A stretch of 44,470 nt of DNA from a virus, in IMG/VR virus record IMGVR_UViG_3300035698_019624, positions 1-44,470 of that record; one strand, 5' to 3'. This document shows, one piece after another, positions 2,571 to 42,500 of this stretch (position 1 is the first letter of the stretch; every line of letters begins with the position of its first letter). The notes beneath the pieces were generated by a model that saw only the letters and a program-made list of their open reading frames with translations, was not told where the DNA came from and did no database searches. The translations under genes and the position numbers were made by a program.

Positions 2571-5369
2571 ATGACAACCTCAGTACCTGGAAGTAATTAC
2601 GCCTTCCCAAATATTAAATTTAATGAAAGTACTATTGGTCCTGTTCCTTTTACTCCCGAATGGAGAAATACTATTGGTTTAGCTGGTGTATTTAATAAAG
2701 GTCCTCAAGGTCCAATTCAAATTAATTCACGACAACAATTTAACGCTTTATTTTCTGAAGATGACTCTGCTGGTTCTATCTTTGTTAGACAAGCAATGTT
2801 GCAAGGTGCAACAAACTTTTCTATCAGTAGAGTAATGCCTTCGGCACGTTCTGCAGTCGGAACAGTTAGTTTGCAATCTGGAACTAATCCAACAATTAAT
2901 GAAGCTCATGTTTCGCCATCTGGTCCAAAAACCATTGGTTTAACATTAAACATTAATTATGTTGGTTCTCCAGTTATTAGACCTGGTGTATATATTGGTT
3001 CACCAGTTCGTATTAATTCAATATCTCAATTTCTTCCTGTATTTGAAGGAATTGGATATTTTGATGCAACTATTCAAGAAAAAATTGTTCTTGCATCAAT
3101 TACTCCTTCAGCCGCAGTAACTTTAAGTTTTATTGATATTGCTGCTAGTGGAATTTCTTTAGTTTCTATTAGTTCTTCTACCGATTCTGCAGGAACAGCT
3201 ATTGTACGAAGTAAAGTTAAGCCTGGTTTAGTTATAACAAAAGATGTTGCTGACGCTAGTACGACTGCTCTTCCAGTAGGCGGTTTACAAATTCTTTCAT
3301 ATCCTTATGAAAGTGCAACTGGTGTGTATTCTTTTTATGTTAAAGGAACTATAACTGGTGCTGTAACAGCAACTCCAACATCGGTAGTTGTTGGTGCTCC
3401 TACAGGAACTGATTATTATATTTTACGTTATCAGTATCGCACTCCAAGTGGAAGTCTTTTGCCAAGTACAACTATTTCAACAAACACGTATGATGTAGTT
3501 GGAAGTGCTCAAGGTTTCTTTACTGTTGGTAATTTGGTAAAAACTTTTCAAGATATTAAGTTTTTAAATAATGCTGCTGGTGTTATAACTGAAGTTAATA
3601 CTGGAATTCAAGTTGCTTTGGGAGACACCAACAACAGTGATCCAATGGAACTTATTCCTGGTTCAGTATTCACTGTTCCGTTTATTAAAACGTCAGTATC
3701 TATTGGAGAAACTGATGCTAATGCTCCTGGCTTCCCAGTTACTAGTAAAGCATTTATTGGTGGAACATCTTCTTCAGATATTCTTACCAATCTTAGATTA
3801 GAAATGCTTAAAAATGAATTTGTAATGGGCTTACTTGATGGAGTAGACCTTAATATTTCATTAGTTCCTAACAGCGTTTCATTTACAACTAATTTCCAAT
3901 CAATTGAAGCTAATCGAGTTTATTATAAATTAACTCGCACTGTGTCTTCTGATAGTCCACAAGACATTCTATTTGGTGCTTCAGGCGCTGTTTACGACAC
4001 TAATCTTCCAATGAGTGGTGGTCGTGATGGAATGAAAAGCGCTTCTCGCTTTTTGTATGATGCTAACGGAAATGCTTTAGTTTATATTGAATCTCTATCT
4101 CCTGGAGTTAGTGGAAACAATATTCGAGTTACTGTACGTCCAGCACCTCCAGGAAAATTCAGAATAGACGTAAGAGACGATGCTGCAATTAATAATGCTG
4201 TAGTAAATCCTCCTGAAACTTTTCTTCTTTCCAACTACACAGTTGATAAAGAAACTGGTTTATATGGAGAAACTGCAGACTCTAAGCTAATACGAGCGTA
4301 TTTTGTTCCAGTTTATGAGAATCTAGTTAGTGAGATTGCAACTTCTACTTTTGATCTAACTCCTCAACGTGTTGCTCCTCCTCTATCAGCACTGGAAAAT
4401 TCAATTCAAATCAACAATCCTCTGCATCCTGCTCATCGTGGTGTAGCGTACTTAACTGGAATATATCTTCAAAATGGATATGAACCAGTTGATTATAAAG
4501 TTACTGCCCCTAGTGACAATGATTATGTTGATGCTATTCGTCGTTTAGAAACGGAAGATGTTGCTATTCTTTGTGCTGCTTCATTAAATGTTGGAGACGT
4601 TCGTTATGAACGTGCAATTACTGAACTGCTTGTACAAGCTGAACAATCAACTACTTTTAATGGATTAAGAGTATCTGTTGTTGCTACTTCTCCTAACTTG
4701 TCAGCATCAAGAAGTGAAACAGTTACTGCTGGTATTAGCAGTGACCGCTTAGTGGTAGTTTCTGGATTTACTCGCATGGCAGGAGTACGTTCTGTTTCTA
4801 CTTCTCCTGATGGATTCTATGCTGGTATCCTTGCTTCTATTCCTCCTCATGTATCGCCTGCGGCGGTGTATGCTGGTAAAAGTATTAATGGAGTATTACG
4901 CACTGATACTAAGAATGACCCATCTTACCTTAACTCTTTAACGTTAAGTCGTATTGAAGTATTACACTTCGATAACGGAATGCAACTGTATAAGTTTCTT
5001 AATGGTCTTACAACTTCAAGTGATCCAACTACTAAGTGGGTTGCTATACGTCGTTTGGCAGATCAAATCATTATGGATTTGTATCGTAATCTTCAATGGG
5101 TACGTTCACTTCCACATGATGCTGGACTTCGTAGTCGTGTTGCTAGTGCAATAGATGCATATCTTCGTACACTAATGCGTGGTGGTCAGATTTATACATA
5201 TCAACCAACGATATGTGATGAATCCAATAACACAATTGATGATATTTCACGAGGTTATCTAAACGTTCGTGTAACATATACTCCTGTGTTTCCTGCTGAC
5301 TTCATCAACGTTGACTTGTTAAGAGATATTACTAGTGAATTCTCTTTAACAACTTCGGTTGGTCGTTAA
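2571..5369 (+). CDS. Contractile tail sheath protein
   Basis: This is the sheath subunit that forms the contractile cylinder around the tail tube. At 932 aa it is longer than typical sheaths (roughly 400-700 aa), with extra beta-rich material in the middle that probably decorates the outer surface. Residues 36-61 carry the usual N-terminal sheath signature (GLAGVFNKGPQGP followed by a QFNALF element). The last about 230 residues hold the conserved core, including the RRLADQIIMDLYRNLQWV helix and a terminal strand region ending in FINVDLLRD. The tube gene follows directly. Arg codons here are often CGT/CGC, whereas most of the window uses AGA, as expected for a highly expressed gene. The start is ATG 2571; there is no clear Shine-Dalgarno sequence. 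Confidence 0.95.
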   Translation: MTTSVPGSNYAFPNIKFNESTIGPVPFTPEWRNTIGLAGVFNKGPQGPIQINSRQQFNALFSEDDSAGSIFVRQAMLQGATNFSISRVMPSARSAVGTVSLQSGTNPTINEAHVSPSGPKTIGLTLNINYVGSPVIRPGVYIGSPVRINSISQFLPVFEGIGYFDATIQEKIVLASITPSAAVTLSFIDIAASGISLVSISSSTDSAGTAIVRSKVKPGLVITKDVADASTTALPVGGLQILSYPYESATGVYSFYVKGTITGAVTATPTSVVVGAPTGTDYYILRYQYRTPSGSLLPSTTISTNTYDVVGSAQGFFTVGNLVKTFQDIKFLNNAAGVITEVNTGIQVALGDTNNSDPMELIPGSVFTVPFIKTSVSIGETDANAPGFPVTSKAFIGGTSSSDILTNLRLEMLKNEFVMGLLDGVDLNISLVPNSVSFTTNFQSIEANRVYYKLTRTVSSDSPQDILFGASGAVYDTNLPMSGGRDGMKSASRFLYDANGNALVYIESLSPGVSGNNIRVTVRPAPPGKFRIDVRDDAAINNAVVNPPETFLLSNYTVDKETGLYGETADSKLIRAYFVPVYENLVSEIATSTFDLTPQRVAPPLSALENSIQINNPLHPAHRGVAYLTGIYLQNGYEPVDYKVTAPSDNDYVDAIRRLETEDVAILCAASLNVGDVRYERAITELLVQAEQSTTFNGLRVSVVATSPNLSASRSETVTAGISSDRLVVVSGFTRMAGVRSVSTSPDGFYAGILASIPPHVSPAAVYAGKSINGVLRTDTKNDPSYLNSLTLSRIEVLHFDNGMQLYKFLNGLTTSSDPTTKWVAIRRLADQIIMDLYRNLQWVRSLPHDAGLRSRVASAIDAYLRTLMRGGQIYTYQPTICDESNNTIDDISRGYLNVRVTYTPVFPADFINVDLLRDITSEFSLTTSVGR

Positions 5370-16592: not shown

Positions 16593-17068
16593 CATATTCT
16601 TTTTCCAAATACGAACAACAAGGTATATCTACACGATCAAATGCTGCATCTGGTGTGGATATTTTTCTGGCAGAAATGGGAGATATTGAGGTAGTAAACG
16701 GAGATTTTAGGCTAGTTAAAGGAAATACTAATATTGTAAAAGCTTTTCTTAGAAGACTTAATACTCCTCCTTATGGATATAAAAGATTTATGAGAACTTT
16801 TACTGGTATTACAGAAATTGGCGAAACTTATGGAAATGATATGTATTTTTACTTATCTGCTCCCATTACTACGTTAAGCTTAGAAAGTATATTAAAAGCT
16901 TTGGAAGAAGCAGCAAGAGAAGATCAAAGAATAGAAGTTATGGATATCGGTGTTGCTTTTAAATCTATTAATCAAGTTTACATACAAAAATTTAAGTATA
17001 TTATTAAGGGCGAAGATGAACTAAGATCTTTAAGCTTAGTTTTAGATAATGGAATAAATAATGTTTAA
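16589..17068 (+). CDS. Baseplate wedge protein, gp25/Mu gp46-like
   Basis: A 159-aa protein. It has the family pattern GDIEV (31-35), GDFRLVKG (38-45) and KAFLRRLNTP (51-60), followed by a Gly-Tyr segment and a C-terminal helix-strand pair (ILKALEEAAREDQRIEVMDI). Proteins of this lysozyme-fold-derived family form the inner ring of the baseplate wedge with the J-like subunit encoded next. The start is GTG, overlapping the upstream TGA (GTGA). It overlaps the J-like gene by 8 bp, consistent with co-assembly of the two products. Confidence 0.85.
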   Translation: MTYSFSKYEQQGISTRSNAASGVDIFLAEMGDIEVVNGDFRLVKGNTNIVKAFLRRLNTPPYGYKRFMRTFTGITEIGETYGNDMYFYLSAPITTLSLESILKALEEAAREDQRIEVMDIGVAFKSINQVYIQKFKYIIKGEDELRSLSLVLDNGINNV

Positions 17069-18143
17069 TCCTAGAAATATTCAAGACATACAAATAGGCT
17101 TTTTTAAGTACTTAGCAGAAAATGGTTCAGCATTAACTGATATTGCACCTGGTAGTGTACTTCATTCTTTAACTCGTTCTTTCGCTGGTATTCATTATGA
17201 ACAAGATTTAGTTCTTAATGAATTATCTAATAGTATGTTTTATTCAAACGCTATTGGATCTGATTTAGATAGATTGGCTTCTAATTTTAATTTATTGAGG
17301 CGTAGCGGTGGAGTTTCAACAGGGTTTGTATTAACTCTTAGTAGTGATCCCAATGTGTCAATTGAACCTAATACTATACTTACTGATACAACTACCAATC
17401 TTCAATTTATTGTTAACCTTTCTTTTTCTGTAAAAATTCTAAGTTTTATAGAAGCAAAAATACCTATTACTGCAGTTCAACAAGGATTACAATATAACTT
17501 AAAAGCTGGAAGTAAATTAATATCTCCTTCTTATCCAAATGTTAATTTCATTGTTGGTACACATAGAACAAACAATGGAGAAGTTTGTGGAAACATAGGT
17601 TTTGGTGCATCCCCAGAATCTGATGATTCTTTTAGATCAAGAATTATTGAATTTATTTCTAATAGGCGTGGAACAACACAACAAGCTATTCGTGCTGCAT
17701 TACTAGAGAATAATATTATTGAAGAAGTATTTTTTAAAAATACTATTCCTGGATTATTAGAAATATATTTAGATTCACCAAACATTCTTACTCAGATAAA
17801 TTTTCTTGAATTTTCTAATATTGTAAATTTAATAAAAGCTGCTGGAGTAACATTTACCTTATTTCAGGCTATAAGACAAAATACAGATATACAAATATAT
17901 ATTTTACCTTTGCCACAAGTTGATAAAGATACATTGACTGAAAATATACTTAATATAACAACTAGGTATTTATTTTCTCTTAGTGTAGGACAATTATTTT
18001 CCAGAGAAGCATTAATTAAACAAATAGTTTCTACTGGAAGCGTTGTACAAGCTCAAATTATTACACCGACTACAGATATTCAACCACCTAATAATGCTGT
18101 TGTAAGATCAAATAATATATGGATTACTTATGACGCATTATAA
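17061..18143 (+). CDS. Baseplate J/Mu gp47-like wedge protein
   Basis: A 360-aa protein, normal for the family. The N-terminal part has the typical ...DIAPGSVLHSLTRSFAGIHYEQD segment, the GSDLDRLASNFNLLRR helix, and the signature ESDDSFRSRI at 186-195. The C-terminal domain consists of beta-alpha repeats ending TPTTDIQPPNNAVV. These proteins (gp6 in T4) build the baseplate wedge that holds the sheath-contraction trigger. It overlaps both neighbours (8 bp and 14 bp). Confidence 0.92.
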   Translation: MFNPRNIQDIQIGFFKYLAENGSALTDIAPGSVLHSLTRSFAGIHYEQDLVLNELSNSMFYSNAIGSDLDRLASNFNLLRRSGGVSTGFVLTLSSDPNVSIEPNTILTDTTTNLQFIVNLSFSVKILSFIEAKIPITAVQQGLQYNLKAGSKLISPSYPNVNFIVGTHRTNNGEVCGNIGFGASPESDDSFRSRIIEFISNRRGTTQQAIRAALLENNIIEEVFFKNTIPGLLEIYLDSPNILTQINFLEFSNIVNLIKAAGVTFTLFQAIRQNTDIQIYILPLPQVDKDTLTENILNITTRYLFSLSVGQLFSREALIKQIVSTGSVVQAQIITPTTDIQPPNNAVVRSNNIWITYDAL

Positions 18144-23932: not shown

Positions 23933-24667
23933 ATGACACTTACGCCACAAGCTATATTGGGAGATCCAATTACAGGAATTGGTGCTGAACCATTTCGAAG
24001 TAGTCTGGCAAAATATAACGCACATATTCATGCTTTAGTGAATCCGTTTAATTTTCTTCAATCTGGTATTAAACTTGGAGATTCTCTTACAGCAGAAAAT
24101 TTATGTGGAATCACAGTATTACCAAGCAATACGGTAGTTACTATTATTACTCCTACTTCGATTACTTTAAACAACAACGCTACTCGCACTGACAACTGTA
24201 GATTAGCTATTAATGTTAATCAATTATTTTTAGATAATGTTTCATCAACTATCGGTTCTCCTGTTTTAACTATTACTAATCAAAACTCTGCTGGATTTAT
24301 TAGTTCTAATAGTTTTAAAAATCTGAGTACTTTTGTACTTTCTGGTTTTTTACAAACAGTAGAAACTGGGTTTAAACCTTTATTATTAAAAGCACCTTTT
24401 TCTTGTTATCTTGTTGGTGCAAATTTTATTGCTGAAGGTGGAAAAGTGAATGTAAGTGTTGAATTTAAATCTAATACATATACATTTGTTAAACGTATTG
24501 ATTTAGGAGATTGCAATAATAATTCGTTAGTAACGCATGATTTAACATTACAAAACAGTGTTAGAAATTCATTATTAAATGTTAATCAAAGTATTGGAAT
24601 ACTAATAAACACTGTGGAAACTAATACTAATTTCACCTACACTCTAGTGTTTGCTAAAGTTGTTTAA
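23933..24667 (+). CDS. Unrecognised structural protein, 244 aa
   Basis: It starts two bases after the previous stop, with AGAGG upstream. It is rich in Asn, Thr, Ser and Val with a beta-strand pattern throughout and no catalytic motif, as in fibre or head-fibre proteins. The short N-terminal segment QAILGDPITGIGAEPFRSS may dock it to the virion. Its last 17 bases overlap the terminase frame. Confidence 0.8.
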   Translation: MTLTPQAILGDPITGIGAEPFRSSLAKYNAHIHALVNPFNFLQSGIKLGDSLTAENLCGITVLPSNTVVTIITPTSITLNNNATRTDNCRLAINVNQLFLDNVSSTIGSPVLTITNQNSAGFISSNSFKNLSTFVLSGFLQTVETGFKPLLLKAPFSCYLVGANFIAEGGKVNVSVEFKSNTYTFVKRIDLGDCNNNSLVTHDLTLQNSVRNSLLNVNQSIGILINTVETNTNFTYTLVFAKVV

Positions 24668-26435
24668 AAAAACTAAGACAGAACCAACATTTGATAACCT
24701 TGAAGATGTTTTTAAAGACTTTGTTGTAACTGCAGAAAAAGCAATAGGTCAACAAAAAGATTTATATATACCTGATGTAATAGAGTTTACAGAAACTTTT
24801 TTAAATTTAGGTAATATTGGATTAACTATTTATCAACGTTTAATTCTCAAATGTTTGTATAATCTTAATTTGTCAGAAGAAGATTTGTCGATCTTAGAAT
24901 ATTGGAAAAGTACTGATAAAACTACATTTGATTTCGATATTAAAAATAAATATCAAATATTAGTTATACAAGCAGGACGACGAAGTTCCAAAACTCTTCT
25001 TGCTGGTATAATTGCTACTTATGAATTTTTTTGTTTAGTGCGTATAGGAAATCCTCAAGCATATTACAAGATTGCTAGTGGTTCTCCTATAGGCATTCTT
25101 TGTTTAGCAACTACTTCTGATCAAGCTAAAAGAACTATTTTTAGACAAGTTCAAGGTTTAGTTAAGAGTGTTCCTTACCTTCTTGATTTAGAAAGTAAAG
25201 GAGAAATATTTATTGGTAAAGAAGAAATAGCTTGTGAAAGCAAACAAGTTTATCTTTATGCTGGTAATAGCAAATCTGGTTCACAAGTAGGTGCGAACCT
25301 TAAATGTTTAGTAATGGATGAAGTAGCACGTTTCCAGTCTGCAGATGGGGATAATAATGCATTAGAGTTGTGGAGTAACTTAGGTATTGCAGGTGCACCT
25401 TTTAAAAGCCAAGCTTTAAGAGTAGCCATTTCGTCAGCTTGGGAAGATGGAGATGCTATTGAACAACTTTATAATACTGCTAAAGTTACTCCTTCAATGA
25501 TTGGATTTAATTGTTGTAGTTGGGATATTAACCCGATTATAGCGGCAAGAGATAATGAAGTAGTTATGGCAGAATATGCTGCTAACCCGATAATAGCTGC
25601 TTTAGAGTTTGAGAATATAAGACCTAAAGCAGCTATGGCTTTTCTTAATTACGATGAAGTTAGAAGAGCTTTTACTGGTAAATCAATAATAAAAGTTCAA
25701 AGAAATATTGTTTATGAACCTAATCCTTTAGTAGAATTAAATTTAGTTGAATGTGAAACAACTAAATCTTATTCAAGTGTAATTCACGTTGACCCAGCAA
25801 TTCAAAAAGATGCTTATGCTTTGGCAATGGGACATCTTAAATACGAAACTAATTCTGATAAACCTTTAGTTGTTATTGATTTTATATGTGCTTGGGAACC
25901 TGATGTTAATACTCAAGTCAAATTGTCAAATGTATACGATTTAATAAAAGAGATACATCAATATAGAAATATATTAAAAGTGTCAGCAGATCATTTTAAC
26001 AGTGCTGAAACTATGCAAAAACTTAATGCAGATGGTATTCCTGCGGAAAGTGTATTTTTCTCTAATAGAACTCAGATAACAATGTATGACACTGTTAGAA
26101 CTTTGTTACACGAAAATAGATTAATATTACCAAATGATTCTTTTTGGACTCCTTTACTACAATTAGAATTAGCAAGAGTTGAATTGAAAAATGGTGGTAC
26201 TAAAATAGACCATCCAAAAACTGGAAGTAAAGACATTGCAGATGCTGTTGCTGCTGTATGTACTATACTTTTAGGAAATCCTATTAGTATTAATAAGAAT
26301 AAGCCAGTATTAAAAGCAGCAACTGTCAGCCAAACATTTAAAGTTCAACAGATAAATAAAAAAAATAAATTTAAAGAAAAATTACATAATCATAATAATG
26401 TAATTACAAAATTTAGGAATTTAAAACCAATTTGA
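24651..26435 (+). CDS. terL: Terminase large subunit (ATPase and nuclease)
   Basis: The DNA-packaging motor that pumps DNA into the prohead and cuts it, 594 aa. The ATPase domain has Walker A GRRSSKT (109-115), Walker B LVMDE (220-224) and a coupling motif near SSAW (261-264). The nuclease domain has Asp381 (HVDPAIQKDAYA), Asp447 (SADHFN) and Asp528/Asp531 (GSKDIADAVAA). The C-terminal 50 residues are Lys/Asn-rich. The frame is closed by TAG at 24645 and has no ATG before motif III, so translation must begin at TTG 24651 or TTG 24660. It lies among tail genes, with no small terminase subunit recognised nearby. Confidence 0.96.
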   Translation: MLKLFKKTKTEPTFDNLEDVFKDFVVTAEKAIGQQKDLYIPDVIEFTETFLNLGNIGLTIYQRLILKCLYNLNLSEEDLSILEYWKSTDKTTFDFDIKNKYQILVIQAGRRSSKTLLAGIIATYEFFCLVRIGNPQAYYKIASGSPIGILCLATTSDQAKRTIFRQVQGLVKSVPYLLDLESKGEIFIGKEEIACESKQVYLYAGNSKSGSQVGANLKCLVMDEVARFQSADGDNNALELWSNLGIAGAPFKSQALRVAISSAWEDGDAIEQLYNTAKVTPSMIGFNCCSWDINPIIAARDNEVVMAEYAANPIIAALEFENIRPKAAMAFLNYDEVRRAFTGKSIIKVQRNIVYEPNPLVELNLVECETTKSYSSVIHVDPAIQKDAYALAMGHLKYETNSDKPLVVIDFICAWEPDVNTQVKLSNVYDLIKEIHQYRNILKVSADHFNSAETMQKLNADGIPAESVFFSNRTQITMYDTVRTLLHENRLILPNDSFWTPLLQLELARVELKNGGTKIDHPKTGSKDIADAVAAVCTILLGNPISINKNKPVLKAATVSQTFKVQQINKKNKFKEKLHNHNNVITKFRNLKPI

Positions 26436-26982
26436 CTTTTTCTAATATTTCATATATAGATTCAATAAATTTTTCTTTAGTGCTTTCATTGTAAATGTCA
26501 TAAGTAAAATCGGCACTTTTAGAAAGAATATTATTTATTTCTGAAACAAATTCATCTGATGTTCTTGGTTCTACATTTCTATAAATATTTATATGAATAT
26601 GTATTGTGCCAGAACTTTGTAAATTTTGTAAGAAATTCATTTCAGACAAATTTCTTATGGAGGTAAATATAAAATTATCTGATTTGGATAGAAAAATATT
26701 TCGTTTCATGTCATAGATAGAATATGATGGAAAATAAATTTTGAAACAATGATAGATTTCTTGTAAAACAGTGTGCATTGAATACTCACTACCATCAGGA
26801 ATAAATTCTTTTCCAAGCTTGCTATCTAATGTTCCTGCTTCTAAATTTAATACTTTCTCAAAAAAATCTTTCATCATAAATATAGGATGAATATATTTAG
26901 CATCTAATTCTTTTTGAAAAATATCTGTTGCAACTGTTTTTCCTACGCCAGTAACGCCGTTAAGACTAATAAAATAGCCCAT
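26413..26982 (-). CDS. Deoxynucleoside monophosphate kinase-like P-loop protein
   Basis: A 189-aa protein. The N-terminus has a P-loop, GVTGVGKT (9-16). Residues 103-120 (NFIFTSIRNLSEMNFLQNL) match the 'v-R-...-E-...-l' segment of the T4 gp1-type dNMP kinase fold. HINIYR (130-135) and the closing SADFTYDIYNES with a C-terminal helix match its 'h-i-.-R' and 'aD-..-i-N-dg' elements. The likely role is phosphorylating dNMPs for phage DNA synthesis. It is antisense to the late genes and convergent with the terminase, overlapping it by 23 bp, so it is expressed separately, probably earlier. Another small nucleotide kinase is possible. Confidence 0.72.
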   Translation of the reverse strand: MGYFISLNGVTGVGKTVATDIFQKELDAKYIHPIFMMKDFFEKVLNLEAGTLDSKLGKEFIPDGSEYSMHTVLQEIYHCFKIYFPSYSIYDMKRNIFLSKSDNFIFTSIRNLSEMNFLQNLQSSGTIHIHINIYRNVEPRTSDEFVSEINNILSKSADFTYDIYNESTKEKFIESIYEILEKVKLVLNS

Positions 26983-27031: not shown

Positions 27032-27550
27032 GTGAATATATACAGCCCAATTTACATTAAATATATTAATCCAATAATAACGTCACAAGAAGATACTAAT
27101 GCGTTAATAAGATTAGTTATTACTCCTCCTGCTTCCGGTTCAATTTCATATTATCAGTTTTTACCAAAACCAACAACTATTGATTTAAATAGTGCTGGCG
27201 AATTAAAAATAAAACTGGCTAATACTGATAATTTTTATATTAACGGAAGATACGAAGTAAAGTTTTATTTTGTAAAACCAAATGGAAAACGAACTGATAC
27301 TCCTTTTTTAACTCAAAGATGGAAAGTTCCATCTTCATCTTTTCAAAGAACAAAAATTGTTACTCATCCTTTTAATCTTGATTCAATGGATGAACCAATA
27401 TATGAAATAATGAGTACTTCTTTAAACTCGGATTTTTATATAGAAAACAATACCTTAATATTTAATTCTCCTCCTTTAGCTAATACAACGTTTAGTATAA
27501 ACTACGTGTACGCTCTAAGTTTAGGTGACATATTAGATGAAATAGAATAA
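27032..27550 (+). CDS. Unrecognised structural protein, 172 aa
   Basis: It starts at GTG 27032; the next in-frame Met is about 115 codons downstream, so GTG is required. The protein is beta-rich with an immunoglobulin-like strand pattern (LIRLVITPP, ELKIKL, RYEVKFYFVKPNGKRTDTP) and no catalytic motif. It overlaps the giant gene by TAATG, which ties its translation to it. A tape-measure-associated or tail-tip accessory role is a guess from that coupling. Confidence 0.8.
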   Translation: MNIYSPIYIKYINPIITSQEDTNALIRLVITPPASGSISYYQFLPKPTTIDLNSAGELKIKLANTDNFYINGRYEVKFYFVKPNGKRTDTPFLTQRWKVPSSSFQRTKIVTHPFNLDSMDEPIYEIMSTSLNSDFYIENNTLIFNSPPLANTTFSINYVYALSLGDILDEIE

Positions 27551-30500
27551 TGGGAACAGTATACGATTTCAGAGAAAACGATAAAAGAACTAGAGAATTT
27601 ATCTCTGGTGCACCAAGAAATTCTTTAACTGCCACTCTTTATGAGTGGTCAAAAACGAGCACTCCAGATTTTTCAAATGCTAAAGGCATAATTGTTAATA
27701 CTGGAAACATTTCTGCTAAAGAATATCAAGCTAGAATTAATTCTCTTAATAGTAAGAAAGTAAATTTTAGAACATTTGGTACTGCTGGAGGAGATCAAAG
27801 ATTACATGCTAAAACATATGCAACTGATACAGAAGCACTTATTTCTACTGGTAATTTCTCTGATTCTGCAACAAGGTTTTCTGATACGTATGCTGCAAGA
27901 AAAGAAAGCAATAAACTTAATCAAGTTAATATTAGTTATAAAACTAATGATAAAGACTTAGTAAGTAAGATACGACAATTTCATAGCAACTTGTTTGCAG
28001 GAAAACCTACTAATTCTAGTAGTAATTTTCTTGTAGGTGCTAATACTAACTATGCAGTTAAAAGTTCTATAGAAGAAGCTCAACCAAACTCTGATATTAC
28101 TTTAGTTTCTGCTTATACTAATGATATTTCAATTTTTGGAGCTTTGGCAGGTGCTGTTAAGAAAGGTTCAAATGTAACTTTAATAACAACACTAAATTCT
28201 AATATTAAAACATCGCCTTCTAATCCAGTATACGAAGATATAAGAGGAAATTTATTAGAAAGATTACAAGCATCAGGAGTTAATGTTTTAGCTCAAAGAG
28301 CTGATGATCCTTTATTAATCCATGCTAAAGCTTTAAATATTAAAAATTCTTCTGGTGAAGTATCTTACCTTGGTTCTTCAAACATAACTAATCCTAGTAT
28401 GAGTGAAGATTCATATGATGTTTTAGTTAAATTACTAGATACCGACGCTAGTGAAGCTGGTAAAATTATTCGTTCAATAAAAAATATTGATTTAATTAAA
28501 CCTGATTTAAGAAGATCTAAAGTTAAAAAACATTCACAAAAAAAAGCAAAACCATTTTCTGGAATAGAATTACGAACACTGTCAGCAGGAACAGATTCAT
28601 TATATAGTTCAAATATAAATCATGAGTGGCATAATGCAGATGGAAATCTAGCAATATCTAAGCACGAAGATGCAATGCCTTATTTTCCTACTGCATTGCC
28701 AGATAAGTTTTTACAACAAATGGCAAGAAGTGGTGGAAGATCTACCATGTATCAAGACTTATACAAAGCAAGAACTGGTGAAGAAGCTGGTTCTGGTATA
28801 AGAGCATTAGACGAACAAATGTCTAATCTTGGTTTAGGTTTGGGCTTAAATCAAGCTATAGGTGTAGATGTATATAAAACTGGTCGTGGTGTATTAGGTT
28901 CCGTTTTATCAGGAGTTGGAAGGTCTTTAGATTTTCTATTTGGTGATCCTTATTATGAAGAATCAGAAGCACTTAGAAAAGGAAAAAAAGAAGGTTCTGT
29001 TAAAAAATTTCTTGGTATAGCATCAACTAATAAAAAAGATAATGAAGGTTCTTTTGAATCTTTGATTAATCAAACATATGATATGGCTGTTGGAGTGTCT
29101 CAAGCAATAGCTGTATATGCGGCTGTTAATATGCCATTACAACATGCTTTAGCAAAACTAGAACAAGAAACAGTAAATTCATTATTAGCTTCTCCAGATA
29201 CAAATAGAAAATGGCATGGTGCAAGAACTAAATTTGAAGGAATGCAAAGACGTGTTATATTTGGTAATCGTCTTGGAGAAAAAATAAGTGATCTTGTAAA
29301 CACTAATAAAGATGTTACCAGTAATCTTTTAGATTCTTTGGTAAATCAAAAAGGAAAGTATGCTAGTGCAGCAGTAGAAACAGTTGCTGACAATTATTTA
29401 CATGGAATACAAATGTTATCTTTTGAAGATAATGTTGGTGTATTATCTATGTCTAATAAAATCAGAGAATTTGATCAGTTTAGATTTGCTAATATTCTAA
29501 AACCAATATTTCAAACAATAAACCCCTATGAAGTGGGTTCTCAAGATGATACTTTAGTTCAAATGAGTCTTAATAAGATTCAAGAAATTGCAGGGCACAA
29601 ATTAAGTTTGTCTTCTAAAGTATCTGAGTCTTCTTTATTAGGAAGACAAACTTATGTGAAAAACATAGGTGAAAGTCGTGTTGGTGAAATAGCTAAAAGC
29701 ATGGACCGTTTGGGGGCATTACTTCCTTTAAACATAGCTTATTGGTCTCCAGCTATTCGCAATACTTTAGGTTTACCAAAATTTGATCCAAGTAAAAATA
29801 TGACTTGGAGGGATATTTTCAGTATTGAAGAAGTAACAAAATATGTTCCTAAGTTTTACTCTGCTATTAGTAACACTTTAATTAATCCTTTAGCAATTGT
29901 TGACGGAGTAAAGTCAATTGGAAATAGCAAAGGAATAAAAACAAACTTAAAAGAATTTGTTAACAAAGCTTTTCCAATTATTAAAACTGTTCCCAAAGCT
30001 TACAAATTATGGTCACAACAAAGACAAGTTAATAAACAGTTAAAATCATTAACTGATTTGGCTCCTTCTTTAAAGTATTCTGTTAATTTTGATGGATTAA
30101 ATAATCTTTCAGATGTTTATGATACTGCTGAACAATCTTATAAAACATTAAGCAGTCAATTAAATTCATTTTCTAGTAATAAAGGTATAAAATTATTTCA
30201 AGAAAATCAATTAAATTTAACTCAGAAAACAACGGGTTATTTATCTGGAAGAAATCTTAATATTGATGGATTGATAAATCATCCATTATTAGATAAAACT
30301 CTACCAAAATATGCTGCAAAAAGAATAAAAAGAGCTGGTAGTGTAGAACAATTAAAAGCAAGCAAATTTAAAAGTCTTTTAGGGACTGTTGGTTTAGTAT
30401 TATTAACAGATTTAGCAACAGATAATTTTTTATTACAATCTGGTTCAGATTTAATTACTCAACTAAAAGCTAAAAAAGAATTAGAAACTAAAGATGGAAC

Positions 30501-33500
30501 AGTTGCACAGTTTCAATTTGATGGTAAAGCTCCTGGTGCATTTGCTTTAAGTGTAGGGTTAGCTGCTGGAATTAGTACTGGATTTTTAATACCGAAAGTA
30601 GTTGATTCTAAACTAAATTTTGGAATGAATTTGAATTCAGAAGAATTAGACAGCGGTTTTATGGCTGCTAAATCAACTATAGAAAAAGTTGGTACTTCTG
30701 CTCAGGTTGGTAATCCTGCTAATTTTGTTGGAAAATTAACTAAAGCAAGAGCTGATTATAGTGAATTAATACAAGGATTTGGTAGACATAAAACAATTAA
30801 ATTTAATAAAAATTTAGCAATTACTGCAGGGTTAACTTCTGCATTATTTACATCATTGGCATTTAAAGGTGCTGCTGGTATCGCTAACGCTTTATTTAAT
30901 AGAAATAAAGGAGTTAATTTAGATTCTGTTGGTGCTTTGATGTCAGCTACCACAGAAAAATTATTAGTTGATTCTCAAGCAACTGCAAAAACTAATCAAG
31001 ATTGGTCTGATGTTGCTCTTGGAAAATTAATTGCTGAAAAGAACTTACTTAAAAAACAAGATGGAAATAATAGTGTTTATTCAACCGCTGCTCAAATAAC
31101 TACACCGTTTTTTCAAGTAGCAGGTTTGATGAAAATGGACGAACAAGCTAATAAAGCTGTGTTTTCTATTGGATTTCAACTTGCTCCTGTATTGGGTTTA
31201 GGATTTTCACCTATACTTCCTTTTGGTTATAAAATAGACCCAAAAAGAATTGATAAAAATAAAACTGATCAATCTAATTTTGCTGATAAATTTGGTTTAC
31301 CTGGACAAATTATTTCAGGTGTATTTAATATTGGTGGAAATATTACTTATGAAAAAGACAGCCCGATAATTAATAATATAGAATTTATTGGTTTAGCTGC
31401 TCTTGCAAGCGCTTACAATAGACCTGTTACTAGAGTTGGTAGAGCTTTAATAGATAAGCTACCTCGTGGCGTACAAGCTGATTTGTACTTACTAGGTAAG
31501 CAAACTAAATCTATTAGAAAATACACTAGTGGAGCTATGAACTTATCTAGAAGTATGGCAGAAGGTATAACTGTATTGCCTTTTGTAGCTGCTCATGGAA
31601 CTGCACAAGCAGTAACAAAAGTGTTTGGAAAGATGGCTTCTAATAATATTTTTAAAAAAGTGTTAACTGGATTTATTGCTTATAGCGTAGCAAGTGTAAT
31701 GTCTGGTGTTCCTGAAAATGAAGAAACTGATGTAAAATCCCAAATTCAAAAGATGATTCCTGCCGGAATTGGTATTGCAGCTATAGTTAGTGTAAACAAA
31801 GTATTATCATTATCACCTATAAATTCTAGTCGTTTTATTAGAACAGCATTACCTTTTTATCTTGCAGCTTCATTAGGAAGATTAATGTCTGACAATGATT
31901 CAGGTTATACGCAAAAAAAATTCTCTCCTTATGAACAATTTAATGCATTTATTGGTAGTGGTTTAATATTTGGTGGATTATTACATTCTTCAGGAGCATT
32001 TGCTCGTACTGACGATATTACTGATACTTTATTATTTAAATATTCGTCTAAAAAGCGAAATAAAGTATTAAGAGAAGTCATGTCTGAATTAGAACCTGAA
32101 AAAATTATATCTGTAACAAAACATCTTGGCAAATTAATGCCAACAAAAGGTTTTAAACGAATAAAAGCCGATGACAATCTTTTGAAATCTTTGTCATTAG
32201 AAACTCTTGTTCAAAGAACTAGTTTATACGAAAGTAAAGAAGTAACAGAAGGAGTTTTAAGACATGGGAAAATTAAAGCGTTTACTGCAAGATTGAGATC
32301 TGCTGGTAAAGCATACGCTACTCTTACTTTGGGATCTTCTTTAATTGCGAATTTACTTAACGATTCTCAACTAGAAAGTTTATACAAAGTTCCTATTATT
32401 GGTCAAGTAGTTAGATTATTTAGTGGAGTCGATCCAAGTAATAATATTTCTGGTAAAAAACGAACAAATCGATTACAAAGTTTTGTAAGTAAAGTTTTAA
32501 AAACAGCAACATTAGGTATATTAGATTTTGATAAAGCAACTGGTGCTTATCAAGATAAGTCAGATCCTTTCTTAGCTGTATTTGGAGGTCTTGGTGCATC
32601 GTTTAGAGAAGGCGGAAGAACAACTGAATATTTTCAAGTTGCTTCTCCTTTTTCTGACTTATCTTTTAGTTCTTACAAAATTGGTAAAATGGCTGCTTCA
32701 GGTTCTATTACTAATATGGAAGTATTAGCTAAGGGAACTCCTGCAGGATTAAATGCCAATCAAGCTCTTCGTTTAAGAATTGCAAGATTAAGAGGCGCAA
32801 CTCCTAGAAAAGATAAAATGCAAATTGATAAAGTTTTATCAGAATATGCGTTAGAATCTTTAACTTCTTCTGGTATAAAAAGATCTATTAATGTTCAAAA
32901 CTTTTTAGTTAAAAACTTAGCTCAACAAAGACCTAGTGAAATAGGTTTAGATATGTATAGAGAAGGTTTAGTAACTGGTTCTGTTAGTTCTAAAGTAATG
33001 AAAGGATCTAGATTAAAAAGAATATTTGATCCTCTTTCTACACTAAAAGGTTCTTTTACAACTAATTCTAAACGCCCTGAAACTAAAGATGCAACTATAA
33101 GTACTATTGATGACTGGGCAGAAACTGGTTTGTGGAAAGAGAAAATGGTTAATTCTGAAGTACTTAGAGGATTAACTAACCCGTTAACTATTGCTAATAA
33201 ATTGAATTTTCCAGCAGCTTATATTCCAGTAGCTGCATTAGTTATTGGTTCTACTGCATTAGCATTAATGGAAAGTTTTTCATCTTTGGCTAATATAGGA
33301 GCAAAACAAAGTTTAATTGATTTAGCTAATGATTCAAAAATCTTTAATTCCAGACCAGTAACTAATAAAAAGAAATTTGTATTTACCAGTTTTATTGAAG
33401 CAGCTACTAATAAAATGTCTGTTATACAAATTGACTTAACAAAATTAGACAACGTTGGTTATGTATTTGGTTTAGATGCTGATAATGCTTTAAGTGAACT

Positions 33501-36500
33501 AGTAGAATCTAATTCGCCACGTAAATTAGCTAGTACAGTTTCTAATGCTTATTCAAAACATCTTGGCTCTGTTAATAGATTTTTTAAAGATAATTTTTCT
33601 GCTGAATTAAATAAAAATTTAGTTGAAAGTTTTAATCCAAATGTATTTAAAAACAACGTTAGAGAACAACTAACTACAAATCTATCTAAATCTTTTAATA
33701 GAACTTCTATTAAAACAGCTAGAGGAAGAGTATCGTATTATGATTCTGTATTTGGTGGAAACTCTAAAATCAATCCAAGTTTAGATAAATATGTTACTTA
33801 CTTAATGGATGGTTCAGAAGAATTCCAAGGTATTACTTCTGCTATTGATGAGGTACTTGAATATGCTAAAGAATCTTATAAAGGAAATGCGCCAGTTGGT
33901 TCAGAAATGTTTGTTAAAAGAAGAGTTGAATTACTAGATGTTTTTGAGAAAACAACTGGTTTTAAATCTTTTGTTGAAACAATTGAACGACCGTTAACTG
34001 GCGAGTACAATCTCAGTACTAATGAAATAGAAAATATTAAATCTTTTAAATCTGGAACAGAAATAAATGAAGCTTCTTATAAGTCTATAAAAGAAGCAAG
34101 GAACAGTATGAAATTAGTTAATGAAGCTGATTATGCTGTTAATTCTAATAAATCAAAAATATATAGATTTGGTTTAGAAAGTAATGTATCTTGGAGTCAA
34201 AAAGGTATTGGTTCTGTATTAGATGCTGGTAAAGGTGCTTCTATTTTATTAGGTCAGTATGTAGAGAAAATTGTACCTGCTTATGAAATAATTGAAGGAG
34301 CAAGTTTAGCATTAGACAAATCTAAACCAGATTATTTAAGACAGTCTGGTGGTGAAAGTGCTATTCGTTCTTTTGTTACTACTGCAATTTCTGTTGGTAT
34401 TTCTGCTGGTTTAACATTTCTTGGTTTACCTGCTTTTGCATCTCTTGCCATTGGCGTTACGTCTATGATGGGATTCCAACTTCTTACTGGAATGAATAAA
34501 ACCTTAAGAGATTCTCAAGATAATTTTGTTAAAGGTTTTTCTAACCTTGTATTCAAACCAGTAAAAACTATTGCTAAAGTATTTAAACCACTAGGTTTAG
34601 ATAATGCTTTTGAAACTGTTGCAGGAACTATTTTAGCGCCGTTTGGTGGTGCTATATCTTTAATGGCAAAAGCTATTAATAGTTTTACAAGCAGTGTTAC
34701 AGGACCTTTGTTGGCAGAAATGATACAAGGAATGGATAAAGCTTCTCCTTGGCAACAAATGCTAGGACAAATTTTTCTTCCACAAACTGCTTACACAGCA
34801 GAAGCTAACAGTAGGTTTTCAAAAAGAGCAACTCTAGTTAATACAATTAAACAAAGTACTAAGATTGGTGGTATTCCTGAGTTATATTCAGAAATAAACG
34901 GCGGTGCTTACTATGACTCTTCAAGACATTTTATAGATGATGCAACAAAGAATAAAGTATATGGACAATCTTATGCTGGTGGTGGAAGAATATTATCTTC
35001 TTTCTTAAGTACTGGTATACGAATGTCTAATATTATGAGAATGTCTTTAGAAAGAAAAAGATTTCTATCAGATCATTTTGTTGTAGGCTCTGCAATTACT
35101 AGGATGAATACACCTCATGAACCAAATATTTCTGGAATGATGGGCATGTCAGGTTTACTTCTTGCATTTGCTAATAAAAAACGTATATTTAAAGCTTTAG
35201 GAAAAGTTGGTACTGCAGGTATTAGTAGATTTGATAGTGTTATGAAATCTTCTATGGGTATTTCTCCTAAAGCGTTTATAGACAAAGCTATAAACTTAAA
35301 AACATTAGCTCAGGAAGTATTAGTTACTAAAAAGCCAAAATTCATTCCAGACTCTTTTAAGGGCGGACATCTTGGACATAAAGTTGCTTATAAATTTAAC
35401 AACTTCTTAGAAGGAATTAAGTTTAATTTAAAAGCTTCTGTTGAAAGTTTATTCCAGAAAAGTAAAGTATTATCTTATTCTGCTAATACAGTTGAAGTAG
35501 CAACTGAAGCTAGTAAGAATTTTGAAAGATTATCAGGTCAATTATTTGGTTCTGCCAAAGGAATGGCTCAAGTAAATGCTCCAAAAGGATTTTCAACTTA
35601 TGCAAGCTTAGAACAATCTGGTATGTATAACATTAAGAAAAATGCAATTAGATTATCTTCAACTACTGAATATGGTTTGGGTTCTTCTTTTGTTAATAAA
35701 GTATTTAAAAGTAAGTCTGAATTTATTGCATTGCATGAACTTGGTCATTCTTACGATTCACTTACTGGAGTTAGATTAGGTTTAGGTAATATTAATTCTA
35801 TTGGTAATCAAGGTCGTTTAAACAATAAACAAATACGAGAAGTTGTTAGAGGAATGGCAAGAGATTCTGTCATTCAATATGCTTCTGGTAATAAACTTAG
35901 TAAAAAATTAATTAGTAAGATTTATAGAGATGAAGTAAGTGCTTCGACAAGAGCTTTAGTTCAAATGAACAGTAATAATTCTGAAGATTTGGGTTTATTA
36001 CTTAACAAATTAGCTCAAGAAGGAAAAGTTTCTAACATTAAAGAATTTAAACAGTTAGTAAAAAATACATCTTCAGAAAATGTAAAAGATTCAGGTATAA
36101 GATTTCTTCAAAAGAAACTTAACATAACTGTTGGTCCTGAATTGAAAGGATTAATGAAAAGTGCTGGTACTGTAAAAGAAAAGTTATTTGCATCTGTTTC
36201 TTACAAAAAATTCTTAGGAAATAGTAATGTAAAAAATACTTTTTTAAATAGAAGTAAATCACACATAGGAGATTTTTCTTCTAGTTTATTAAAAGAACAG
36301 TTTAATGACTTACTGTCAAAGCCTACTAAAAATCAACACATATTTGTAACTGCTATAGATAAAGCTTTTAGAGCTTCAGTAGTTGCAGGTTCTGGTACGG
36401 TCGTTGGTAAAGATTTAATAAAAGGTTCTTTAATTGAAGGAACCAAAGATGTATATTCAATGATTAATAAACCATTGATAAATACAACGAGAAATCTTAA

Positions 36501-39500
36501 TGCACGATTAGGTCGTCTTGGTTTAAATTTATTTGATGTGTTAGATGTTGGGTTTACTGGTCTTGACTTAATGTTAGGTCAAGAATCAGTTAATCAAGCA
36601 CGAAACGTTAATAAAGATCTTTCTGTTTTATATAGACAAAGTGGTGCTCGTGGTTTAGTTTCTAATAGAACTTCAATAATGAAGTCTTTAGAAGATAGTA
36701 AAAGCAATCAACTTGGAGCTTTAACTGGAAACTTGTTTGGTGTTTCTGGTTCTTTGCTTTCTCCTAATCCTATATACGGATTAGTTGGAGGAGCAGCAGC
36801 AACTGCTTTTGGTTTAATAGGATTTGGTGGATTAAATAAATATTTAGCTAATAGAGATTATGAAAGAGCTTTACAAGGTCATGGTACTTATGACCCAATT
36901 CAATCTCAGGGATTATATTTAAGATCTCACAGAGGTTTTGAACAAGCAAATGCTGTAGGTAATGCTTTGTTTGAAGCACCAAGAAGTTTCATGGGTAAAC
37001 AATTAACTAAAGTTGCAAAATTTGGTAAAAAGCATGTTTTACCAATACTATCTAAAGTTGGTAAAGTTTTTGACTCTTTATTAAATGTTGGCTTAACTGG
37101 AGTAACGGGCGGCGTTATGGCTGCCATAGGAACTTCAATTATATCTACAATAGGATCTGCTACACTTCTTGCTGTGAAGTCAGGTAAGGCTATTTCTAGA
37201 TCAATTAAAAATATTTCAAAATTATCTAATTTTAAATTACCTGATTTTGGTAATTTTAAGTTGCCCAAATTTAATATGAGCTTGCTTAGTAAATTATCTA
37301 ATATTAAAAATATTAAAATTCCTAATATTTTAAAGAATTTTAAATTACCAAGTATTAATTTTAGTAATTTTAAAATTCCAGGTATTGACTTTAGTAAATT
37401 AAAAATTCCTAATATTAATTTTGGTAATATTAAATTAAAATTACCTAAAATTAATTTAGATTTTTTAAAGAATATTAAGATGCCAAGTCTTGATAAGTTG
37501 AGAAGTTTTAAATTACCAGACTTTAATATATTTAAAAATATTAAATTACCAGGTTTTGATAAGTTGAAAAACTTTAAATTACCTAAAATGTCTGGTGGCA
37601 AGTTAGGACAATTTATTAAAAATGCTCCTGGAAAACTATTTAGTATTTATAAAGATTTCTTTTCAACTAATATATCTTTTAACAAACTTAAGAATGTTAA
37701 CTTTAAAGGTTTGGTTGATAAAGACAATCTTAAATATCAATATTGGCTTTGGTCTAATACTACAAAATCTGGGAGAGGAGTTAAAAGTTCGTTAGATAAA
37801 GCTGGTAGAGTATTGTCTTCTGCTAAATTTAAACTTGAAGATGCTGCTGCTTCTTTGATGAATCCTAATACTTATAAAAGTATTAAAGATGCAGCAATAA
37901 ATTCTATGTTTACTATTAATAGTAAAGCTGGGAAAGCTTTTAATTCTTTAAAATATTCTTTATCTAGAGGAGTTTCTAAAGTTCGTAATTTTAATAGAAG
38001 TATGAATTTTGGCTTTGTTAATAAAGCTACGTCTAGATTAAAATCAGGTGTTAATAAAGTATCTTCTTCTTTAAAAAACGCCTATACAGTAGCAAGCACA
38101 GTATTAAGAAATTCTACTAATATTGATAATTACAGATATCAATATTGGCTATGGGCTAATACTTCAAAATCAAGTAAACTTTTAACAAAAGCTGGTTCAA
38201 CTATTAATGATTTATTTACTAATGGAATGGATTTAGTAGGTAAAAGTATTAATAGAATTAAACCTGGTGGAGTATTTAAAACAGTTAAATCTATTGGTAC
38301 TAAACTTGCCACTTCCTTAAAAGATTTATCAAGTAGATTACCTAAATTTAACCTTAGTTCTGCTGTTGATAAAGCTAGTATGCTTGGTAAAAAACTACTA
38401 ACTGGTGCTACTAAAGTAGTGAGTTCTTCTTTTGGATCTTTAGCTTCACGTTCTTTATCTTTTGCTAGTAAATTATACAAACCAATTCTTAACTTTGGTA
38501 TAAGAGCAGAAACTGCTGCTATTAAGAAAATTAATAGATTTGTTCCTAGCATTGGCAGAACATTAGCAATTAAAGGATTTAAAGAAACACTAATCGATGC
38601 TATTAGTCCATTAATTGATATAACAACTTTTGGAAGTGGTGTTTTAGAAATATCTCAATTAAATAAAAAATCGACTTTAGCTGATGTTGAACAAGCGTAT
38701 GCTAAAGCTTCAGGAGCTAAAGGTTCTTTAGTTGGTAGTATTCTTGGTTTTACAGCAGGAGGAGGCTTTGGTGACTTTATTGGTTCCTTAGCTGGAAATT
38801 TAATTGGTTCTAGCTTTAATAAAGCTAAGTTACGATTTGATACAAAAGACTTTGGCGCAGCTACTATATTAGAAGATCAAGTAAAGCCTCTTATTAGAGA
38901 TTCTGCACTAGCTTATCAAGTAGGTAAAAATGTATCAACCAAGTTAGTTAAACCTTTAACTGGTATGTATTTATCAAGTTTGAGACAAAAAGCTGGCTTG
39001 CAAACTTTAGCTAAATCTGCACAAGGTTCACGTGCACTATTAAATAAAGGCATTAATCCAAACCAATTTAAATTAGCTAGACATGAAAAATTAATATTAA
39101 ATATTAACAACTCTGGTAAGTCTGCTTTTGCTAAACAAGTCGCTAAAGCTTCTACTAGATTAAAATCAGTTGGTGGTACTGCAGGTCAGCGTGTTATTTC
39201 TAAAACTCTTCGAGCTGGAGGAAAAATTGGTAAAACTGCAGTAAAAGCATTTTCTTTGTTAAGTCCAGTTATTGATACTTATTTAATTGGAAGTGGTTAT
39301 AACAAATTAAGAAATGCAGAAACTCAAGCTGAATTTGTTTCTGGCAATAGAAGAATGATGGGTTCTTCCGGTTCTTTAGCTGGTGCTGTAATAGGGGGTT
39401 CTTTACTTGGACCTATTGGAGCTATTGCAGGAAGTTTAATTGGTGATTTTGCTGGTAATATGTACGGAGAATATATTGGTAAAGAAGCGCATAGAAAAAG

Positions 39501-42500
39501 ATTGTCAGGAAAAGATTTAGCTAATAATCAATTAGGTGGAGGTATAATTGGTGGTGTTTTAGTTGGTGCTGGTGCTGTTGGTTTAGCAGCTTTAGGTGTT
39601 ATTAGTGCTCCTTTGATATTAGCTGGTGTTGCTATAGGTGCATTAGCAGGTGCTGCTATTGGTGGTTATAATTATGTTAAAAATAATAATAAAGAAAAAT
39701 TAACAAAATCTATATATGAAAAACCTAAACAAAAAGAATTTAAAGATTCAGTAAGAATTGAATCAACTCAACAAACTCCTGTTAAACCTTTATCTCAAAA
39801 TAATAGTAAAACATCTAAAGGATTTTTTACACCGTTATTAGAGTATGTTTTTGGTTCTCCTGCTCAAGCTAGTGAGTTGAATACAATAAAAAATATTCAA
39901 CAAAAAACAACAGATAGAAAAGCTTCATATAAAGAATTAATTCCAGTTAAATCTTCTTATAAGAAAGTATTTAAATCTGAATCTAAAAAGCAAAAAAATG
40001 CTGCTGATTCTATTGGAAATTTCTTAACTAAAATTACTAATTCTGCTGTTAAATTTTTCCTTAAAGCAAAAGATGCTTTAATGAATTTAGTTCAAGCAGG
40101 GTCAGATGCTGCTAGTAATGTTATTCAAGGTGGAGTAAATTTAGTAACTGGAGTTGCTGATACAGCCTTAGATATTGCTTCTGGCGGTTCAGTTGGTGCT
40201 GGTCGTATTCCTATTTTAAGTGGTGAATATAGTTCTTTAAATAAACTTATTCCACAACTTGCTAGTAATAAATATTTTAAGACTGATACTGAAGATGGTA
40301 GATCTAGAATGGTTATAGCTGTCAGTATTGGTGCTACAGAAGCTTTTGGAGCAGGTCAGACTGGTACTGATTTCTTTACTAGAAGAGGTGGTACTGGCAA
40401 CAATATGAAAGGACTTGCTCAATACAATTTAGCTTACCATTCTTCTTTTATTGATACTCCAGAAAAATACAAAGACTACCTAGGACAACATTTGTCTGGA
40501 GAACGAGTATTACCAAATAGTCAAAGTGCTGGTAATCCTGGCAAAAGATTGAGTGATGCAATTAAATCCGGAGAAGTAAAATCTGGTCCTGATTTAGAAA
40601 GGTTTTTAAGAAAAATTCAACTAGGTGGTTCGAATTGGCAAGGTTTAGATGATGGTTGGAAGCGTAATCCTGGTCTATCTAATCAATTATTTAATTATTT
40701 AAAATCTCCTCCTGCTCCTTCAATTGTTAGAAATGATAAAGTTTCTAACACTGCTTCTGGTTCATCTGTTGCATCTGGTGTTTCAAAAGGTCCATTGTTT
40801 GGATATGCTAGTCCTTCAGCTACACAGAATTGGTCTCAAGTATTAAATGGTTCTGTTACTCCTGGACAAAGTTTAAAAGCTTCAAGAGGTGGTGGTTCTA
40901 GACTGCATAATGGAATTGACTTTGATGGTACAGAAGGTTTGTCTTCCAACGATTTAGTTAATGTTATGTTTCCAGGTTCGGTTGTAACAACTGCCGCTTG
41001 GGGAGCTGGAGGCTATGCAGACCAAGGTGGTGGAAGAAGTAATGCAATACAAATAAAATCTGCTTTACCTGGTGGAGGTTCTTTTTATATGGATTATGGA
41101 CACATGAAAGAATCTACTTTTAAAGTTAAAACAGGATCACAAGTTGCTGCAGGACAAAATTTGGCAAGATTATCTGTTAATGATGAAGCTAGTCAAGGCG
41201 GACATTTAGATTTGAAATTGCAAGTTCCTACTAGTTTTGCTAACAAACAAGGTTTTAGCCAAGGTTCAAGAGGAAAAGTTGAAGGATATACATATGTTGA
41301 TGTAAAACAATTTATGTCTTGGTATCAAAAACAAGTTGATGCCAAACCTGTAGTTTCAACTAGTGTACCTAATGCTTTAGTTAAAACACAAGGAAACATT
41401 TCTGCTAATGTTGTTGCAAACAAAGTTGGTAGTAAAAAAACAGCTACTGTTGCTCAATCAGGAAATGTTGCTCCTGCTTCTGGAACTGTTAAAACTACAA
41501 AAGCACCTACTGTTTCTAACGCAAGAGTTATTACAGCAACTCCTTATGATGTTATTAGCTTTAGTGGACAAACTAATAATTCTGGAGTTCGTGGTAATTT
41601 TGTTGTTAAGAAATACGAAGATGTAAGTCCTCACTGGAATGGTAGTGGTGGTTATACAACTTACAAACGAGATTCTAGATTTAAAACTGGGTGGAAATCA
41701 ATGGTTGGTGATCTCCAAGTATCTGACCTTGCTTTGTACAGAAATGATAACGAAAATGTAGAAGTAAGAGCCGCAGCTAGTGGTACTGTTGTTTCTGCTG
41801 GTGGTTCTTATGGGCTTGTTGGTATTAAAACATCAAGTGGAGAAGTTGTACGAATGCTTCACAATACTGGAATAACAGTTGCTGTTGGTCAAAAAGTACA
41901 ATTTGGTCAAATTGTAGGACGACAAGGAGATGCTGGTACTGGTAATGGTGCATATCACGTTCACTTAGAAGCTTCTGACGCTACTACTAAACGTTATGTT
42001 GAAGCACTTGTATCTGGAACGTATAAAGACACTGATATCGGGGCTGGGTCAATTAATCCAGATGGAACTTCTATAGTTAGTGGCGGTAGTTCAGGTACTA
42101 AAGCAATGGAAGAAAATACTAATAGTTCTTTAGGTTCAAGAATTGTTCGAAGTATTACTGGTTTTCTTAAAGGCTTTATGGTATTTAATGTATTTAAAGC
42201 AGTCGCTGCTTTAGGTAATTTTGCTGCTAATAAAGTTATGTTAACTAACGGAGCTTCTGGTGCTAACAGAGTAAAAAAACGTGGTGAGCGACCAATGAGA
42301 GAATTACTTAATGCTTGGGGTGCATATGCTCCTGCAAGACAAGAATCGTCTCTTAATAATGGTTCTCCTAGTATTGTTAATAGAACGTCTCAAACAGCTC
42401 AACAAACTGTTCCATTAACAACACAAGTTCCTAACATGCCTGGTGCGTCAGACGATCAACGATGGGCTATACGAACAATACAAGCAGCTCAAAGAATTGG

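Follow-up and report, generated by a model that had tools for sequence, protein, structure and literature searches.

An exchangeable, probably nuclease-bearing slot in a probable tape-measure protein of Ma-LMM01-like cyanomyophages

What would a phospholipase D (PLD) superfamily domain be doing at the N-terminus of a phage protein that resembles a tape measure? The question is raised by a virus record of 44,470 bases, called the window here and analysed over its whole length, in which a giant ORF begins with such a domain. An earlier note on this DNA had offered two functions for it, attack on host lipid and cleavage of nucleic acid.

The window encodes a tail sheath, baseplate proteins and a terminase large subunit (TerL), and therefore derives from a contractile-tailed phage (Table 1); the sheath and baseplate genes lie in the same cluster as the giant gene. 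Among phage records, the closest TerL sequences were those of the Microcystis phages Ma-LMM01 and MaMV-DC (33%) and the Microcoleus phage My-WqHQDG (31%). Relatives were collected via alignments of TerL, which yielded some 50 from IMG/VR, mostly metagenomic contigs. Single-protein pattern searches of IMG/VR with the window's own PLD domain or TerL returned no loci, and tblastn searches of phage records with the PLD domain or with aa 1-2997 of the giant protein gave no match. The order TerL, small gene(s), giant gene was kept in Ma-LMM01 and MaMV-DC, in My-WqHQDG and in most of the roughly 50 IMG/VR relatives. TerL kinship and gene order mark the window out as a piece of a Ma-LMM01-like cyanomyophage, and the hosts are presumably cyanobacteria, as judged from Ma-LMM01, My-WqHQDG and a match in a cyanobacterial MAG. 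Two further ORFs were observed in the window: one of 189 aa (26413-26982), which matches AAA_22 weakly, is situated on the minus strand between TerL and the giant gene and opposes the direction of the cluster, and one of 309 aa (8497-9426), within the structural cluster, starts with an Arc/CopG-like ribbon-helix-helix segment.

Table 1. Positions of the features discussed, in window coordinates
Feature	Position	Strand	Residues	Basis or remarks
Tail sheath (contractile tail)	2571..5369	+		phrog_30392, E=6.5e-52
Baseplate J-like wedge protein	17061..18143	+		phrog_6, E=4.9e-27; PF04865
Terminase large subunit (TerL)	24651..26435	+		PF03354, sub-threshold; 33% identity to Ma-LMM01 terminase
Gene directly 5' of giant ORF	27032..27550	+	172 aa	Position and size only
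Giant ORF, probable tape-measure/ejection protein	27550..43386	+	5278 aa	Place after TerL, hydrophobic segments, M23, glycine zipper
Two-lobed PLD/HKD domain, proposed nuclease module	27574..28479	+	about aa 9-310	PF13091, AlphaFold2 model, structure matches, family profile
First HxK (LHAK)	27805..27813	+	H86-A-K88	H, K invariant in 12/12 intact homologues
Lobe-1 TGN turn	27847..27855	+	T100-G-N102	T100, N102 invariant in 12/12
Second HxK (IHAK)	28321..28329	+	H258-A-K260	H258, K260 invariant in all 12 homologues
Lobe-2 GSSN turn	28372..28383	+	aa 275-278	N278 in 12/12, S276 in 11/12
Start of conserved body	28672..29889	+	aa 375-780	Common to relatives with PLD, SNase, EEP or decayed-PLD N-terminal domain
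Glycine-zipper segment	39370..39486	+	aa 3941-3979	PF13488, E=1.1e-4, slightly under Pfam cut-off
First M23-like peptidase segment	40906..41220	+	aa ~4453-4557	Approximate; placed by HNG..D and GGHLDLKL motifs
Second M23 peptidase segment	41752..41976	+	aa 4735-4809	PF01551, E=1.3e-14
Weak lytic-transglycosylase (SLT) match	42478..42642	+		E=0.07, under Pfam cut-off

The giant ORF starts at an ATG that overlaps the TAA stop of the preceding gene. Its product is very long, is encoded near tail genes, and combines eight strongly hydrophobic segments (by hydropathy) with wall-degrading domains, as a tape measure would; it was the sole candidate seen for that role, since the other ORFs in the window are all of 932 aa or less. 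Two M23 stretches were reported by Pfam, and these, the glycine-zipper segment, which adjoins hydrophobic helices (hydropathy), and the weak transglycosylase-like segment are all on the C-terminal side. In this context the giant protein is likely a tape-measure/ejection protein, and it is most likely present in the virion and ejected from the tail. The tail of a relative, MaMV-DH01, measures 230-260 nm (PMC9927357). Elsewhere in the giant protein, a zinc-peptidase-like HELGH motif without a Pfam match was seen at aa 2729 (35734-35748), in a region that aligns with the C-terminal portions of the giant proteins of L031 and L033, together with a stretch of KLP/KIP-rich repeats (37219-37600, about aa 3224-3342).

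The N-terminal domain matched PF13091 (PLDc_2) at E=1.8e-15 and 57.4 bits, where the cut-off is 27, and the match was therefore far beyond chance. H86/K88 and H258/K260 were located exactly where the earlier note had put them, with the TGN and GSSN turns likewise kept; the span that it gave, 27607-28470 (aa 20-307), lies inside the domain, which proved to be wider. The acidic residue of the HxKx4D pattern is present after the first HxK as D93 (H86-A-K88-T-Y-A-T-D93), absent after the second, and variable in homologues. An AlphaFold2 model built from a 13-sequence alignment (pLDDT 87.4, pTM 0.89) aligned end to end with complete bilobal PLD enzymes. Over residues 1-320, the match to PLD3 had a Z-score of 27.3 (rmsd 2.7 Å, 279 aligned), and further matches were to PLD2 (Z 27.2), E. 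coli phosphatidylserine synthase (26.2) and Streptomyces PLDs (about 24). Matches differing by no more than 1 in Z were treated as tied; PLD2 ties with PLD3, and the fold alone therefore cannot separate nuclease from lipase. Because the two HKD motifs form a single active site in the aligned PLD enzymes, the expectation that they meet at one active site was borne out by homology. On this model, the domain appears to be a complete two-lobed HKD fold with both active-site half-motifs, and the claim that a probable tape-measure protein begins with such a domain is supported by the Pfam match, the motifs, their conservation and the predicted fold.

An iterated profile found the domain with both sites intact in 12 proteins, whose median pairwise identity was 24%. 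Ten columns were invariant in all 12 (H86, K88, T100, N102, G206, L239, G243, H258, K260 and N278), seven of them motif positions (hypergeometric p about 1.6e-11, in an alignment that was partly anchored by the same motifs). Motif invariance at 24% identity matches what would be predicted from selection for catalysis. When solved structures were searched with the family profile, the best match was the endonuclease Nuc (1byr, E=1.1e-12), followed by phosphatidylserine synthase, polyphosphate kinase, phospholipase and PLD3; a virion nicking-joining enzyme from a poxvirus, a PLD homologue, was also recovered. In a viral structure library, the PLD proteins of a Terrestrivirus, a Pithovirus and a poxvirus were on top, and among tailed phages a query TM-score >0.4 was reached by a Ma-LMM01 protein alone. 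One Ma-LMM01 protein is labelled 'PLD phosphodiesterase domain-containing' in BFVD/UniProt.

Comparison of the giant proteins revealed that the conserved body begins shortly after the module wherever it could be aligned. An intact PLD domain occupied this slot in 12 lineages (the window, L031, L032, L033, L034/L045, L043, L048, L050, L051, L058, L003 and L019). The module is not always N-terminal: 900-2000 aa precede it in L003, L019, L034 and L058, and in L058 it lies at aa 1999-2311. The L058 giant protein also has sub-threshold matches (15542-18541) to eCIS_core (DUF4157), Peptidase_M91 and SprT, hinting at a possible link with contractile-injection effectors.

A decayed PLD domain was found in the slot in Ma-LMM01 gp120 and its kin, in L023 and in L037; the fold and the first HSK are retained, and the second HxK has become HYN. 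Pfam gave no PLD match in gp120, where the decayed domain is detected by alignment and by profile comparison (99.3% probability). The HYN followed by KGTDV.Y that replaces the second HxK in gp120 (L002, 22513-31209), L023 and L037 is conserved across these distant phages, which suggests that the decayed domain may retain a non-catalytic role. The corresponding domain of the L035/L039/L041/L047 group was at first taken as a different domain; sequence-profile comparison gave no decision, and a low-confidence model (pLDDT 58) with Z-scores of up to 13.1 to PLD suggests that it is probably a decayed PLD as well, with the second HxK also lost.

Such losses bear on whether the window's domain is an enzyme at all, since they mean that it may also have a structural role or be dispensable, or that some lineages can do without its activity. 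That a structural or adaptor domain is present, with the PLD fold kept and enzymatic activity absent or irrelevant, would fit the persistence of decayed copies in Ma-LMM01, L023, L037 and probably the L035/L039/L041/L047 group, but in 12 lineages, the window's included, conservation within the domain is highest at the active-site residues, and elsewhere other enzyme domains replace it, so that the PLD fold itself is dispensable. We regard a purely structural role as improbable, the most so of the readings weighed here.

These replacements were of two kinds. A Staphylococcal-nuclease (SNase) domain fills the slot in six lineages, with PF00565 matches in L022 (E=3.3e-12), L040 (2.7e-14), L053, L054 and L055, and with the motifs read from the sequence in L027/L052. 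In one lineage, L030, the slot holds an Exo_endo_phos domain (PF03372, 3.5e-12), which is DNase-I-like (EEP) and has the full motif set TFNL/QEV/HLK/GDFN/DHV/SDH. On a TerL tree of 31 rows, L003 (PLD) and L022 (SNase) were sisters (100/100), L043 (PLD) was the nearest neighbour of L040/L038 (SNase) in a small clade (100/99), and L030 (EEP) fell beside L037 (decayed PLD; 100/100). The SNase label requires five changes on the tree, with at least four of them forced by well-supported branches. In L003 and L022, a leader of ~22 aa is 82% identical and the body 72% identical over 2484 columns, with the module between them replaced; body identity in the other two pairs was 39% (L043/L040) and 36% (L037/L030). 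Chimeric assembly was considered as a source of these swaps and rejected, as the six SNase lineages are on different contigs, the leader and the body are shared by L003 and L022, and the L040 version was recovered in a second contig, L038, with 423/430 residues identical. To judge from these alignments, the slot is apparently a fixed place before the conserved body that has been refilled repeatedly by SNase and once by a DNase-I-like domain.

Cleavage of nucleic acid is common to the Nuc/PLD3 branch of the PLD superfamily and to the unrelated SNase and DNase-I-like folds, so that a nuclease, rather than a lipase, is the simplest function that all occupants of the slot could share. Our preferred reading, which we consider likely though well short of certain, is that the window's domain is an active HKD phosphodiesterase that acts as a nuclease and is delivered into the infected cell as the N-terminal cargo of the giant tape-measure/ejection protein. 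Both catalysis and nucleic acid as the substrate are predicted here from sequence comparison. The lipid attack that the earlier note had offered beside nuclease action is disfavoured by the SNase and DNase-I-like domains that sister phages put in the same slot. A phospholipase would hydrolyse host membrane lipid and help the tail to cross the outer or inner membrane, which would suit the PLD fold, the structural resemblance to true phospholipases (PLD2 and the Streptomyces PLDs) and the hydrophobic segments and cell-wall hydrolase domains of the giant protein. Sister phages, however, replace the domain by SNase or by EEP, the latter with motifs like those of extracellular nucleases, and the nearest profile match by sequence was Nuc. 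The swap to SNase is hard to explain for a lipase because SNase acts on nucleic acids; we know of no lipid-active SNase. We therefore hold a phospholipase to be unlikely.

For the delivered nuclease, both delivery and target can be proposed. Upon infection, the M23 and transglycosylase-like segments would serve to breach the cell wall, with the hydrophobic and glycine-zipper segments forming or lining a passage through the membrane. The nuclease, as part of a protein that is most likely ejected by the tail, would enter the envelope or cytoplasm with the genome or just before it, and in the cell just infected it would cleave nucleic acid, most likely the DNA or RNA of the host or that of competing elements. 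Phage DNA could itself be damaged by a general nuclease produced late in infection, and this counts against the proposal. SNase enzymes usually need calcium, which could keep the SNase version silent in the cytoplasm of the producing cell; the PLD version, being metal-independent, would escape such silencing.

The nuclease might instead act on the phage's own DNA, trimming, nicking or releasing, as the particle is assembled or the genome ejected, the genome end that sits where the tape measure is closest to the head. The N-terminus would be nearest to the genome if the wall-degrading C-terminal end exits first, the N-terminal cargo of the Thermus phage P23-45 is proposed to act on incoming phage DNA (PMC10770324), and the profile links the domain to the poxvirus nicking-joining enzyme. 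Exchange among unrelated and generally non-specific nucleases fits defined processing of the phage's own genome less well, and the second HxK is lost in Ma-LMM01-type phages; this role, too, we consider improbable.

No dedicated nuclease-inhibitor or immunity gene was identified. The 172-aa gene upstream of the giant ORF was considered as a module-specific immunity gene, which is unlikely because a gene of similar size (~150-300 aa) occupies the same place in most relatives, whichever module comes next, as compared by position and size.

The closest counterparts of the window's protein are Ma-LMM01 gp120 and My-WqHQDG WOL31340, both recorded as 'hypothetical protein'. These homologous giant proteins also follow TerL and carry a PLD domain ahead of the same body. 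Gp120 differs in the loss of the second HxK; in WOL31340 the domain is intact, with ~900 aa in front. The earlier note's remark that an HKD domain is not known from the start of usual tape measures agrees with the literature searched, where nothing relevant was found on a tape measure with an HKD, phospholipase D, nuclease or thermonuclease domain; the feature is not peculiar to the window, however, being shared across the Ma-LMM01-like group and partly decayed there. Nuc/NucT-type nucleases and the PLD3/PLD4 5' exonucleases share the HKD fold with its HxK and GSxN sites. Nuc is a single-lobe protein that forms a dimer, whereas the window's domain has two lobes in one chain, is fused to a phage protein of 5 kaa and has a predicted activity.

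Among enzyme-bearing tape measures, gp96 of P23-45 (5002 aa) has a virion RNA polymerase at its N-terminus (PMC10770324). Like the window's protein, it is a giant tape measure with an N-terminal enzyme, a metallopeptidase and membrane segments, and its enzyme is proposed to act at genome entry; it differs in carrying an RNA polymerase rather than a nuclease and in belonging to a non-contractile tail, and the portion of the source used here describes no exchange of cargo folds (PMC10770324). Polymorphic toxins, T6SS DNase effectors (Tde1, PoNe) and tape-measure-related CIS effectors (Sle1, Tme) resemble the window in joining a delivery protein to interchangeable toxin domains and in delivery by contractile machines, and Tde1 crosses membranes by a glycine zipper (PMC10240207). 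In the window, by contrast, the module lies toward the N-terminus, the carrier is an infecting phage and not a bacterial weapon, and no immunity gene was recognized. Phage polyvalent proteins are likewise large and multidomain and are presumed to accompany phage DNA into the host, and some include a ParB-like DNase domain (Iyer et al., 2017; PMC5512222); they are not described as tape measures, and tape measure, HKD, phospholipase and SNase were all absent from that text when it was searched.

Wall hydrolases are known as parts of tape measures, and in one phage so is an RNA polymerase. Enzyme-fused tape measures thus have a precedent in P23-45, and our comparison suggests that what is new is a single slot that holds different folds in related phages. 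Whether a group of cyanobacterial myophages delivers a nuclease with the tape measure and exchanges PLD, SNase and DNase-I-like domains as polymorphic toxins do, as a general tail-borne means of attack on host or rival nucleic acid at entry, we judge to be evenly balanced. Ma-LMM01 and MaMV-DC exist as isolates, with the decayed domain, and parts of the idea are therefore testable. If it is true, a tape measure with such an exchangeable nuclease slot would be a carrier of polymorphic effectors, phage tails would be tied to contractile injection systems and to the DNase effectors of T6SS, and the giant 'hypothetical' gene of Ma-LMM01-type phages of bloom-forming cyanobacteria would gain a concrete function.
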